From: Candidatus Nitrosocosmicus agrestis
GTDB lineage: Archaea; Thermoproteota; Nitrososphaeria; Nitrososphaerales; Nitrososphaeraceae
NCBI RefSeq assembly: GCF_008389435.1
Contig: NZ_VUYS01000027.1
Span: 1 to 33,637 of the forward strand
Reading direction: 5' to 3'
Length of the DNA stretch: 33,637 bases
In this document: piece after piece, positions 2,132 to 5,131 of the stretch
Layout of the letters: each line of letters begins with the position of its first letter
Numbering within the stretch: the first letter of the stretch is position 1
Notes under the pieces: model-generated
Databases searched by the model: none
What the model saw: only the letters and a program-made list of their open reading frames with translations
What the model was told of the DNA's origin: nothing
Translations under genes and position numbers: made by a program

Positions 2132-2569
2132 CTATGCCTGTAGGGTATGCAAAGATTTGTGAATCTTGTACAATCCTACAACGGATAGTGCAATAACAAC
2201 AACTTGCAGTATTTTTGAAATCATGTCTAGTTTTCCTACATAGTATTCTACTCCTACTATAGGTACACCCACTGTTCTTGAGGCGATATACGTTAAGATC
2301 AAAGCTACTGAAACAAGTATAGATGCTATGTAAGGTGATTTTTTAATAAATCTTGTTTTAACTAGCCATATCACAATCCCAAAATAGATTAAACCCGATA
2401 TAATGAATAATGAAATTTCAACCTGCTTTTCAGTAGTTTCATCTTGAATACCAAAACTTAGTAATTCAACCCAATCTTCGTATTCTCCATATGCAACAAG
2501 GAAATAAACAATTCCAGTAACAGCCAAAATCCCACATAAAATATAAACTATTGTTAAATTTTTATTCAT
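2132..2569 (-). CDS. Small membrane protein with four predicted helices
   Basis: About 145 aa with four hydrophobic segments: near residues 5-25, 48-68, 78-96 and 112-130. No catalytic or metal motif is visible and I do not recognise the family. ATG 2569 is preferred over the TTG at 2581 because an SD-like GGTGAT lies four nt upstream of it. It is 49 nt downstream of the secreted helical protein gene (2619-2999) on the same strand and is probably co-transcribed with it, so it may fall under the palindromic operator at 3041-3059. Function unknown. Confidence 0.6.
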   Translation of the reverse strand: MNKNLTIVYILCGILAVTGIVYFLVAYGEYEDWVELLSFGIQDETTEKQVEISLFIISGLIYFGIVIWLVKTRFIKKSPYIASILVSVALILTYIASRTVGVPIVGVEYYVGKLDMISKILQVVVIALSVVGLYKIHKSLHTLQA

Positions 2570-2618
2570 TTTAATCACCAATTTCTGATTATGAGGACCA
2601 AATAATAAAAAAATTAGA

Positions 2619-2999
2619 TTAGGCTAAACCTTTCTTTGCTTCTTCAGCATGCATTAATGCTCCATTTTTGTCATTCTCTTTTAATGCTTTCAATGAAGCT
2701 TCAATATGTTTTTCAGCACCACTTAAATCCGGTTTGTCTTCTAATCCTGATTCAGCTTGCAATAACGATTTTTTAGCACCGTTATTATCACCACTATTTA
2801 TCATAGAAATGCCCGAATCAATCAATTTTACTATCTCGCTATTTGGACCATTAGCAGAAGCACTTGTCTGGTTTGTAGCGTTTGTCATATTATTTGTTTG
2901 TCCATGGGATGTAACGCTGTTTGAAATTAAAAGCAGCGGTACAATGGCTACAATTGATAACAATACAACTTTACGATAGTTTTGTAGTTTGTTTATCAT
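2619..2999 (-). CDS. Secreted small helical protein, SmbP-like
   Basis: The 126-aa protein has an N-terminal signal peptide (basic start, hydrophobic core at residues 10-26), an Asn/Thr/Ser-rich linker, and two helical repeats rich in Ala and Lys. The repeat pattern AEKHIEASLKAL and GALMHAEEAKKGL resembles the H-x-x-x-A-x-x-A repeats of the periplasmic small metal-binding protein SmbP known from nitrifying bacteria, though it has far fewer His. That link is an inference from pattern only. The ATG at 2999 has a TATA-like element (TTATTATT, 3023-3030) 26 nt upstream, consistent with a leaderless message, and a palindromic operator just behind it at 3041-3059. The membrane protein gene downstream is probably in the same transcript. 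Confidence 0.65.
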   Translation of the reverse strand: MINKLQNYRKVVLLSIVAIVPLLLISNSVTSHGQTNNMTNATNQTSASANGPNSEIVKLIDSGISMINSGDNNGAKKSLLQAESGLEDKPDLSGAEKHIEASLKALKENDKNGALMHAEEAKKGLA

Positions 3000-3022: not shown

Positions 3023-3030
3023 AATAATAA
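3023..3030 (-). promoter_or_regulatory. TATA-like box of the SmbP-like gene
   Basis: TTATTATT on the minus strand is centred about 27 nt before ATG 2999. A second candidate, TATAAAT at 3014-3020, is closer than usual for a leaderless start. Confidence 0.4.
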
Positions 3031-3040
3031 ACTACCTATC

Positions 3041-3059
3041 ATTCCCACTAAGTGAGAAT
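3041..3059. promoter_or_regulatory. Palindromic operator, copy A (ATTCCCA-N5-TGAGAAT)
   Basis: Seven-base arms with one mismatch flank a five-base spacer, and the flanking C/G pair extends the symmetry. The proximal edge is 42 nt upstream of ATG 2999, directly behind the TATA/BRE region. The same sequence with perfect arms occurs at 4236-4254 upstream of the cupredoxin gene at nearly the same distance from its inferred start. The winged-helix protein encoded between the two (3104-3490) is a natural candidate to bind both, but this is inference. Confidence 0.55.
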
Positions 3060-3103
3060 GGTCATGAAACTTTTAAATTAGTAGCAGATTTGGAATTATC
3101 ATT

Positions 3104-3490
3104 TTATTTGAACCCCTGCCATAATCTTACTATCCTATCAGGAGAATATTCTTTGTTTTTAACCCTACAGGTCATTTTATTATTCTTAAATGATATTTGA
3201 ATTTCGTCAATCCGAGAGGTATAGAATGATTCATCTGTTCCATCATCTTTGCGAACAATTTTTGCTTTTTTTAGTATATGCAAATGTTCTAACTTGTTTA
3301 CCTTTCTATATGTTGAGGATACAGGTAAATTTAAGTTAGATGCTATTTGCTGAATACTGTATTCTTTTCTATCAAGTAGTTTCAAAATGGCAAGACTGGG
3401 TTTATCTGATAAAATGGCTAAAATATTTTCAGGATCCGGTGAAGGTGATGATGATGACGAGGATGGTGGTGGTGGTTGACGATCATTCAA
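3104..3490 (-). CDS. Winged-helix transcriptional regulator (ArsR-like)
   Basis: The 128-aa protein starts with a low-complexity Pro/Ser tail (four Pro, then Ser/Pro repeats, residues 5-20). A compact winged helix follows: the segment ILAILSDKPSLAILKLLD, then YSIQQIASNLNLPVSSTYRKVNKL as helix-turn-helix (about residues 44-68), then a wing with HILKKAKIV. Bacterial and archaeal ArsR-like repressors share this layout; no Cys/His metal site is visible. The TTG start at 3490 overlaps the TGA of the upstream DUF7521-like gene, so the two are translationally coupled, a pairing also known for DUF7521 proteins in haloarchaea. The palindromes at 3041 and 4236 flank the operon and are candidate targets. 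Confidence 0.8.
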   Translation of the reverse strand: MNDRQPPPPSSSSSSPSPDPENILAILSDKPSLAILKLLDRKEYSIQQIASNLNLPVSSTYRKVNKLEHLHILKKAKIVRKDDGTDESFYTSRIDEIQISFKNNKMTCRVKNKEYSPDRIVRLWQGFK

Positions 3491-3744
3491 CTCTTCAACA
3501 CGGCTATTATTACTAATACAAAACCCGATATTTCTGTTATTTCTTCAACCATTTCTTTGAAATATTCATCCTCTAGGGCCAAAGAGTCTCCAATTATCGT
3601 ATCACCTATTGTTATCAGAGTAAAACCAATTGCAAGAAATATCATTGGAATATATTTACTTCTTTTATAAGCTCGAACGGCAAAATAGACTAGTATAAAT
3701 CCCAATATTATGTGAATCAATATTATTAGATTCATTACTTCCAT
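3487..3744 (-). CDS. DUF7521-like small membrane protein
   Basis: About 85 aa with three hydrophobic helices: NLIILIHIILGFILVYF, a short basic turn AYKRSK, YIPMIFLAIGFTLITIGDTII, an acidic stretch (LEDEYFKEMVEE), and a C-terminal helix SGFVLVIIAVLKS. This matches the size and layout of DUF7521 proteins, which are typically encoded beside winged-helix regulators. ATG 3744 is preferred, because AGGT lies seven nt upstream; an in-frame ATG at 3777 would add eleven residues. It overlaps the regulator gene by four nt. A sensor or regulator-tethering role is possible but there is no direct evidence. Confidence 0.65.
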   Translation of the reverse strand: MEVMNLIILIHIILGFILVYFAVRAYKRSKYIPMIFLAIGFTLITIGDTIIGDSLALEDEYFKEMVEEITEISGFVLVIIAVLKS

Positions 3745-4011
3745 GGCTTTACCTGATAGATGGAAAATGAAGATCATGATTTAAATGTTATACTAAAAAA
3801 GTAAATCGATCTTTCTTTGTAGGATTATTGGGAAATACTCATGTAAAAAGGTAGTATATGCCGTCTTGTCCAACAATATTGTCTTAAGAATTGTATTTCC
3901 CTCGATTCAAACTACAGTATATATTTGGTCATGGGTCCACATGCATTTTTTATCTAGATTTGTAGCTTAACCATAAAATTGAATCATGTTGAAAATAACA
4001 AAACCATATTG

Positions 4012-4045
4012 CATCCAGAAAAGCGTTAGTTTGCTTCTCTGGATG
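4012..4045. repeat. Strong hairpin in the 3778-4294 intergenic region
   Basis: CATCCAGAAAAGC and GCTTCTCTGGATG form a 13-bp stem with one A-C mismatch and an 8-nt loop. A smaller hairpin, GCATCA...TGATGC, follows at 4049-4068. The region lies between the divergent DUF7521 and cupredoxin genes, more than 200 nt from either start, so it is not an obvious terminator. It could be a small structured RNA or the end of an unseen transcript. Confidence 0.4.
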
Positions 4046-4235
4046 TAAGCATCAGGCCTAAATGATGCAATTATTATACCAATCCATTAGTCTTAAGGAT
4101 TTGCAAACATCGGTGCCTTTCCTGCTAGAATCCTCCGTGTTAGAACTATCTTCTATGGAGAGGATTTTTTGCAAAATAATATGTATATAATACTTTTTAC
4201 AGCCATTTCGAGGACATTTTATATCTGTACTTATT

Positions 4236-4254
4236 ATTCTCATTGACTGAGAAT
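4236..4254. promoter_or_regulatory. Palindromic operator, copy B (ATTCTCA-N5-TGAGAAT)
   Basis: Perfect arms, extended by one pair to 4235-4255, with a 5-bp spacer. The proximal edge is 41 nt upstream of 4295, the start predicted from the TATA box at 4264-4271, closely matching copy A. A second, overlapping inverted repeat TTGACT-N6-AGTCAA lies at 4243-4260. Confidence 0.55.
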
Positions 4255-4263
4255 AGTCAAATC

Positions 4264-4271
4264 TTTTATTT
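4264..4271 (+). promoter_or_regulatory. TATA-like box of the cupredoxin gene
   Basis: TTTTATTT centred near 4268 predicts a transcript start at about 4295, giving a 15-nt leader before ATG 4310 or a leaderless TTG at 4295. Confidence 0.4.
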
Positions 4272-4309
4272 GGAGTATTAAACTATTAGAATTATTGTTT
4301 AGAAATATT

Positions 4310-5131
4310 ATGTATTCAAATCATCATTTATCTTATTTGATAGTAATAGGTATTTTGGGAATATTGTTAGTGATGACTTCATATACGACCAATGCATCAG
4401 CCCAACAGAATTCGCAAGGCAATATTACTAATTCTACTGCTGGTGGCATACAACCAAACATTAATGCTGAAAGCATGTTTAATACTAAAACGATGACGTT
4501 AGGCAATAATGTAAAAACTTTAGTCGTTCTCATTCCTAATGAAGGTCATCATTCTGCGGGTGAAGACAAGGAGGCTCGCTTTCTGGATCAACACTTTGTA
4601 CCAGAAAATGCTGTTATTAATACCGGGACTACTGTCTTATGGTTTAATGGAGATGCGGGTCATGAAAGAACAATTGATGTTAAAGATGCGAATGGCAAGT
4701 CAGTATTTAATACGGGTGAAATAACTGACAGCCAGCCTTCTCAGTCGTTTACCTTTAGCAATCCTGGAAATTTCGAATATGAAGCGGAAGGTGATCCTGG
4801 CGTAACCATGACTGGTACTATTACAGTTAAAAATATAGAATCACCAGTTATTTCTTCTGATCTTTCCGCTACGCTGACAAAATCAAACTCAAATAATATT
4901 GATACTGTGGGGGTATTGATGGTTCCCACCCAAGACATTGATAGTTATATTCAACAGATAACTTCTGCTGGAATTACCGTAGATAATACCTATGACTTTA
5001 AGGATTTAAGGGGAGGACAGAAAGGAACTGGAGACACCCAAACCTTGATTGTATGGACTACCGCAAACAAAGATGTGACAGAAACACTCTCTTCATTAAG
5101 TGATCTTTCTGCAGATTTGCCCTATAGTTAA
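4310..5131 (+). CDS. Secreted cupredoxin-like protein with incomplete copper site
   Basis: The 273-aa protein (from ATG 4310) has a signal peptide ending near ASA (residues 29-31), an Asn-rich linker, a plastocyanin-like beta-sandwich (about 85-175) and a C-terminal alpha/beta domain of about 75 aa (VGVLMVPTQDIDSY...). In the cupredoxin part, His118 (GDAGHE) matches the first copper ligand and Met167 the axial ligand, but the Cys and second His of the usual C-x2-H-x4-M loop are replaced by Ala159 and Asp162. A normal blue-copper site is therefore not possible. It may bind copper differently, or serve structurally. An in-frame TTG at 4295 could be the real leaderless start. The promoter carries operator copy B. 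Confidence 0.78.
   Translation: MYSNHHLSYLIVIGILGILLVMTSYTTNASAQQNSQGNITNSTAGGIQPNINAESMFNTKTMTLGNNVKTLVVLIPNEGHHSAGEDKEARFLDQHFVPENAVINTGTTVLWFNGDAGHERTIDVKDANGKSVFNTGEITDSQPSQSFTFSNPGNFEYEAEGDPGVTMTGTITVKNIESPVISSDLSATLTKSNSNNIDTVGVLMVPTQDIDSYIQQITSAGITVDNTYDFKDLRGGQKGTGDTQTLIVWTTANKDVTETLSSLSDLSADLPYS

Follow-up and report, generated by a model that had tools for sequence, protein, structure and literature searches.

Genes of the module

The window, meaning the whole stretch of 33,637 nucleotides analysed here (Candidatus Nitrosocosmicus agrestis, contig NZ_VUYS01000027.1, positions 1 to 33,637), holds a small module in which a winged-helix gene and its partner are flanked by two promoters carrying the same palindrome. 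Its features are the following.

2132..2581, minus strand: four-helix membrane protein (p5), encoded by the second gene after operator 1; among the putative targets it is the one most widely shared
2619..2999, minus strand: exported helical protein of 126 aa ('SmbP-like'), first gene after operator 1
3023..3031, minus strand: TATA box TTTATTATT of the SmbP-like operon, downstream of operator 1 at a distance of 9 nt, with the ATG following after 23 nt
3041..3059, no strand assigned: operator 1, ATTCCCACTAAGTGAGAAT, an exact match within the minus-strand promoter of the operon that encodes the SmbP-like and membrane proteins
3104..3490, minus strand: winged-helix DNA-binding protein of 128 aa, likely owner of the operators (HTH matches below cut-offs, ArsR-like predicted fold, co-occurrence with the operator)
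3487..3777, minus strand: DUF7521 membrane protein, possible signal partner (PF24365, E 5.9e-10, above cut-off)
4236..4254, no strand assigned: operator 2, ATTCTCATTGACTGAGAAT, an exact match within the plus-strand promoter that serves the cupredoxin-fold gene
4264..4271, plus strand: TATA box TTTTATTT of the cupredoxin-fold gene, downstream of operator 2 at a distance of 9 nt, with the TTG following after 23 nt
4295..5131, plus strand: exported cupredoxin-fold protein of 278 aa with an inferred TTG start and weak plastocyanin/amicyanin matches

The winged-helix protein falls short of every family model with which it was compared, scoring 27 bits against HTH_metalloreg (NCBIfam cut-off 55), 26.3 bits against Sta1 (cut-off 80) and 18.9 bits against Lrs14 (cut-off 90). 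Its structure model (pLDDT 73) has an ArsR-like predicted fold, with Foldseek matches to PH1932 (E 1.3e-4), Phr (E 1.9e-4) and CzrA (E 1.3e-3). An alignment of nine orthologues contains no invariant cysteine or histidine that could act as a metal ligand. Judged from its model, the protein is a regulator of the ArsR-fold type, and neither ligands nor family scores support the status of a metalloregulator. Its gene overlaps by 4 nt with that of the DUF7521 protein, a clear member of PF24365 (39.8 bits, gathering cut-off 27), and the pairing of the two is seen in relatives and across the phylum.

The first-pass annotation described the flanking genes as encoding exported, possibly metal-linked proteins; export stands, while the metal labels do not. 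The 2619-2999 protein matches no SmbP family model in Pfam or NCBIfam and, with three histidines in 126 aa, is not histidine-rich, so that without family match or SmbP signature its identity as SmbP is unsupported and the name is kept here as a handle. A cupredoxin fold of the 4295-5131 protein is weakly indicated by an amicyanin match in a profile search (E 3.8e-4), with Pfam Copper-bind below its cut-off. In the alignment its ligand loop reads Y-x-A-E-G-D-P-G-V-T-M, without cysteine; the type-1 copper cysteine and the second histidine have both been lost, and a type-1 copper site is thus absent. The annotation also overlooked a third target, the p5 gene, which starts 37 nt past the end of the SmbP-like gene. 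The predicted structure of p5 consists of four long helices (pLDDT 83); the protein has no match in Pfam, NCBIfam or the PDB, where a fold search with the model yielded nothing below E 0.5.

Operators in the window and in the genome

The two palindromes lie exactly where they had been reported, and their near-equal distance from the genes on either side also holds, with the 42 and 41 nt of the first-pass annotation becoming 41 nt from operator 1 to the SmbP-like ATG (2999, minus strand) and 40 nt from operator 2 to the inferred TTG of the cupredoxin-fold gene (4295, plus strand). At up to two mismatches the window contains four matches to the dyad, compared with 1.09 expected, a number reached in none of 100 shuffles.

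Operators 1 and 2 are the only two perfect occurrences of ATTCYCA-N5-TGRGAAT in the genome of 3.22 Mb, and the reversed pattern used as a control does not occur at all. Allowing one mismatch adds nine copies (11 in total, compared with three for the reversed control), seven of them overlapping long open reading frames and the other two without a start codon nearby, and none of the nine was found in a convincing promoter position. Copies inside coding regions are therefore background only, and a genome-wide regulon of the exact dyad is ruled out.

Conservation with the winged-helix gene

A profile search of 400 genomes of the order found an orthologue of the winged-helix gene in 50 of them, all in two families, with named matches in Ca. 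Nitrosocosmicus, Nitrososphaera, Nitrosopumilus, Nitrosarchaeum, Nitrosotenuis and their relatives. The families in which the dyad stands beside the gene are Nitrososphaeraceae and Nitrosopumilaceae. A first survey of 41 relatives had already shown exact sites adjoining orthologues in three genomes (G004, G013 and G006). Conservation was then counted as the presence of ATTCYCA-N4/5-TGRGAAT in the flanks of 38 non-redundant modules, 13 of which have an exact site with a spacer of 4 or 5 nt, 26 a site within one mismatch and 33 a site within two; in 60 dinucleotide-preserving shuffles, the corresponding means were 0, 0.08 and 1.2, and the maxima 0, 1 and 4. Seen from the side of the dyad, 14 of the roughly 52 exact sites in the 400 genomes lie within 1 kb of an orthologue, where a rough estimate of the chance expectation is about 0.01.

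Five of the 38 modules lack a recognizable site, and one of them is a decayed copy of the winged-helix gene with stop codons (L040). Broken copies of this kind are found at G018:C56:12041-12241 (L040) and at G227:C1:479714-480033; the best remaining operator of the former has three mismatches, as if gene and site decayed jointly.

The arrangement of the module differs between the two families. The order of the Nitrosocosmicus type (p5, SmbP-like, operator, winged helix, DUF7521, operator, cupredoxin) is largely kept, and G004 carries two copies of the winged-helix/DUF7521 pair, one by p5-SmbP and one by the cupredoxin gene, with an operator at each. Operator 1 recurs as the same site in the same place in all relatives that keep the SmbP-like gene beside the winged-helix gene. 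The equivalent of operator 2 shows one to two mismatches in G013 and G004, and the module cupredoxins of G002 and G006 have no recognizable operator. Close homologues of the SmbP-like gene occur in five of the 15 genomes of the genus, precisely those with the winged-helix gene; more distant homologues in three genomes without it (G023, G003 and G024) have no dyad. In Nitrosopumilaceae the operator precedes p5, the DUF7521-winged-helix operon or both, often as a single site between divergent genes, and p5 adjoins the winged-helix gene, with an operator of its own, in most modules. No dyad was found upstream of DUF7521 in Nitrosocosmicus, which speaks against autoregulation through the nearest promoter there. 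Some clades have a spacer of 4 nt instead of 5 nt, and the modules of Nitrosopumilaceae split along this line (L058, L062, L066-L070, L074, L076 and others). Among 18 loci of distant paralogues used as a control set, three have a site at up to two mismatches, and the best of them, in G039, is in fact a winged-helix/DUF7521 module with several dyads.

The dyad thus travels with the regulator gene and is strongly kept where that gene is kept, and the two very probably make up a genuine control circuit with deep conservation among ammonia-oxidizing archaea. The proposal of a shared operator and a small local regulon, with the winged-helix/DUF7521 pair as the likely regulator, gains support from this co-conservation and from the rarity of the site.

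Promoter geometry

The position of the operator was profiled in 48 promoters, which were picked for holding the dyad and consequently inform on geometry rather than on frequency. Aligned on the operator, the half-sites extend symmetrically to ACCATTCYCA...TGRGAATGGT and are followed by GRTAR..A, conserved over positions +1 to +8, and by a near-pure A/T block at +12 to +18, with start codons mostly at +39 to +42. Counting any run of 7 A/T nucleotides upstream and downstream of the operator discriminates poorly in such A/T-rich DNA, and it was the position-by-position profile that could tell the two sides apart. Across relatives, a TATA box of fixed position follows the operator at 9-12 nt and precedes the start codon by about 30 nt, so that operator, TATA box and start codon keep a constant spacing in two families. 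The TATA box of the SmbP-like gene has the same offset in all eight SmbP promoters, and TTTTAT recurs, equally far from the start codon, in the module cupredoxins and several of their paralogues, whether the dyad is present or absent. TATA-like scores over 164 genes, taken from the window and from loci related to it, peak 28-32 nt before the start codon, as expected for leaderless messages.

The fixed A/T block and the scores peaking near the start together place the conserved TATA box downstream of the operator. The palindrome would therefore sit, with high confidence, just upstream of BRE/TATA, some 10 nt from the TATA box and outside the BRE. This reverses the earlier picture, in which both sites were placed just behind the BRE/TATA. 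TATA-like stretches do precede both sites in Ca. Nitrosocosmicus agrestis, and relatives have not retained the one of the SmbP promoter. The element at 4216-4225, upstream of operator 2, is kept in several species, whose cupredoxin promoters carry a second TATA-like element that precedes the operator by about 8-10 nt; this element could represent an additional promoter, or one that is divergent.

Proposed mode of regulation

Number and rarity of the sites, their co-conservation with the gene and their constant spacing all point to the local winged-helix protein as the factor that very probably binds the dyad. Taken as a whole, the best explanation, and a probable one, is that ATTCYCA-N4/5-TGRGAAT is the cognate operator of the 3104-3490 protein. 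Presumably as a dimer, this protein would sit on the dyad just upstream of BRE/TATA and control leaderless promoters, namely those of the SmbP-like/p5 operon and the cupredoxin-fold gene in the window, and those of p5 and of its own DUF7521-winged-helix operon in Nitrosopumilaceae. It would most likely activate them by aiding the recruitment of TFB and TBP. A membrane, redox or copper signal may reach the winged-helix protein through DUF7521; the gene neighbourhood is consistent with DUF7521 as sensor or partner, for and against which the case is evenly poised.

The sign of regulation is drawn from general archaeal rules. Archaeal activators typically bind upstream of BRE/TATA, as TrmBL1, Tgr and Ptr2 do when they activate, whereas sites downstream of the TATA box are associated with repression by TrmBL1, Tgr, Phr and MDR1 (PMC4158304). 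By this analogy, activation rather than repression is moderately favoured for the module. The strongest competing explanation keeps the same protein and the same operators and has them repress: the true TATA boxes would be the upstream stretches at 3070-3079 (minus strand) and 4216-4225 (plus strand), the geometry of the first-pass annotation, with the operator covering the transcription start and leaders of about 45 nt. It can draw on the presence of such stretches at both sites here, on those in several species' cupredoxin promoters, and on the regulators just named that repress from downstream of the TATA box. However, the 48 promoters have their fixed A/T block downstream of the operator and none upstream, the SmbP promoter has lost its upstream stretch in relatives, and the TATA-like scores peak close to the start codon, all of which makes repression from this geometry unlikely. 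A repressor sitting just upstream of the BRE is also possible.

That an unlinked factor reads the dyads, leaving the winged-helix gene as a mere passenger of the cassette, is a distinctly improbable explanation. A longer dyad with the same ATTCTCA half precedes cupredoxin paralogues in genomes without the winged-helix gene, and the genomes examined also encode a paralogue whose recognition helix (SSTYKK) is similar. Nevertheless, the N4/N5 dyad tracks the winged-helix gene through many arrangements, including the position before its own operon in Nitrosopumilaceae, while the SmbP-like homologues without that gene lack the dyad, and the loci of the paralogue have no dyad of their own. Even less can be said for an RNA hairpin or terminator between convergent-looking genes, a very improbable role that the location of operator 1, 44 nt past the end of the winged-helix gene, might suggest: the position of the dyad is fixed to the TATA box and start of the target rather than to that gene end, many relatives have the dyad upstream of the DUF7521-winged-helix operon or between divergent genes, and leaderless starts would leave it outside the target message. 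Chance palindromes in A/T-rich DNA, for which the nine single-mismatch copies elsewhere in the genome might be cited, are effectively refuted by the 33 of 38 modules with a dyad as compared with shuffles, and by the retention of the dyad next to the same genes in dozens of species.

A related dyad at cupredoxin paralogues

The N5 dyad is missing from most cupredoxin paralogues that lie outside the module. Within the genus, several of them have instead a 24-bp dyad, ATTCTCATTC-TCTA-GAATGAGARW, just upstream of the TATA box, at G000:C12:102807-102830 in the window's own genome (L202, L215) and at L169, L185, L186 and L206. This longer dyad is also found in genomes without the winged-helix gene of the module, and half-sites of the ATTCTCA kind may therefore be read by more than one factor. 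As a candidate owner, the SSTYKK paralogue of the genus has no dyad at its own locus. Another copy of the 24-bp dyad (L226, G013:C1:2785437-2785460) lies about 44 nt before a different exported protein, and a broader range of exported proteins may come under this element.

Physiological context

The link to copper that was suggested at first, extended to respiration, is plausible from distant gene neighbourhoods, but the target proteins in the window have no clear known copper site. Distant loci of the winged-helix/DUF7521 pair belong to other lineages of the phylum (L232, L233 and L228), and DUF7521 is also present in Haloferax volcanii. The pair adjoins COX1/COX3 and COX2 in G034, SCO1 and plastocyanin in G461, and a cupredoxin-like protein (below cut-off) in G040. 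Its neighbours in G039 include a weak COX1-like protein and a rubrerythrin-like protein (just below cut-off), together with several dyads of 4-nt spacer within 9 kb. One of these dyads lies upstream of a gene (L227:1-1270, minus strand) whose product matches p5 at its N-terminus (E 4e-7; residues 41-99) and is a multicopper oxidase in the remainder, and this fusion is the best hint of the function of p5.

From the gene neighbourhood in distant relatives only, copper and respiration would be the somewhat preferred physiological context. A more specific reading is put forward tentatively, with doubt prevailing: the winged-helix and DUF7521 proteins may constitute an undescribed membrane-coupled two-protein transcription switch of Nitrososphaerota, in which DUF7521 would sense redox, oxygen or copper status at the membrane and govern the winged-helix protein, which, through the one conserved dyad, would set the level of a membrane partner of copper oxidases (2132-2581) and of exported cupredoxin-fold proteins.

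The literature searched contained no local transcription factor of ammonia-oxidizing archaea whose operator has been defined and no paper mentioning the DUF7521 (PF24365) family, and the transcriptional regulation of Cop genes has been called an open question (PMC7785015). Here a regulator, its operator, promoter geometry and targets are defined together and kept from soil Nitrosocosmicus to marine Nitrosopumilus, in a module small enough for gel shift and in vitro transcription. For DUF7521 and the four-helix 2132-2581 protein, both families without a known function, the module also offers a first hypothesis.

Comparison with known systems

A promoter motif associated with copper limitation, TTCSGSMTTTGWACYANT, has been described in the ammonia-oxidizing archaeon Nitrososphaera viennensis (PMC7785015). 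Like the dyad, it lies before exported and copper-related genes, at -35 to -70 (PMC7785015). Its sequence is not this palindrome, which rules out their identity and indicates a different regulator.

The archaeal winged-helix regulators of ArsR fold, PH1932 (1uly/2cwe) and Phr of Pyrococcus furiosus (2p4w), along with CzrA/SmtB, are the best sequence and fold matches of the 3104-3490 protein. From this likeness, a small winged-helix protein would be expected to bind a short palindrome as a dimer. Unlike them, it has no invariant cysteine or histidine, scores below the family cut-offs and is encoded together with a DUF7521 membrane protein.

The closest parallel in operator design is that of TrmBL1 and Tgr of Thermococcales (TATCAC-N5-GTGATA), which likewise consists of two halves of 6-7 bp around a 5-nt spacer. 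The logic would also be shared, with the position relative to BRE/TATA deciding between activation and repression (PMC4158304). The module of the window differs from these systems in its unrelated half-site, the 4-nt spacer of some clades, and a regulator with neither a TrmB match nor a sugar-binding domain.
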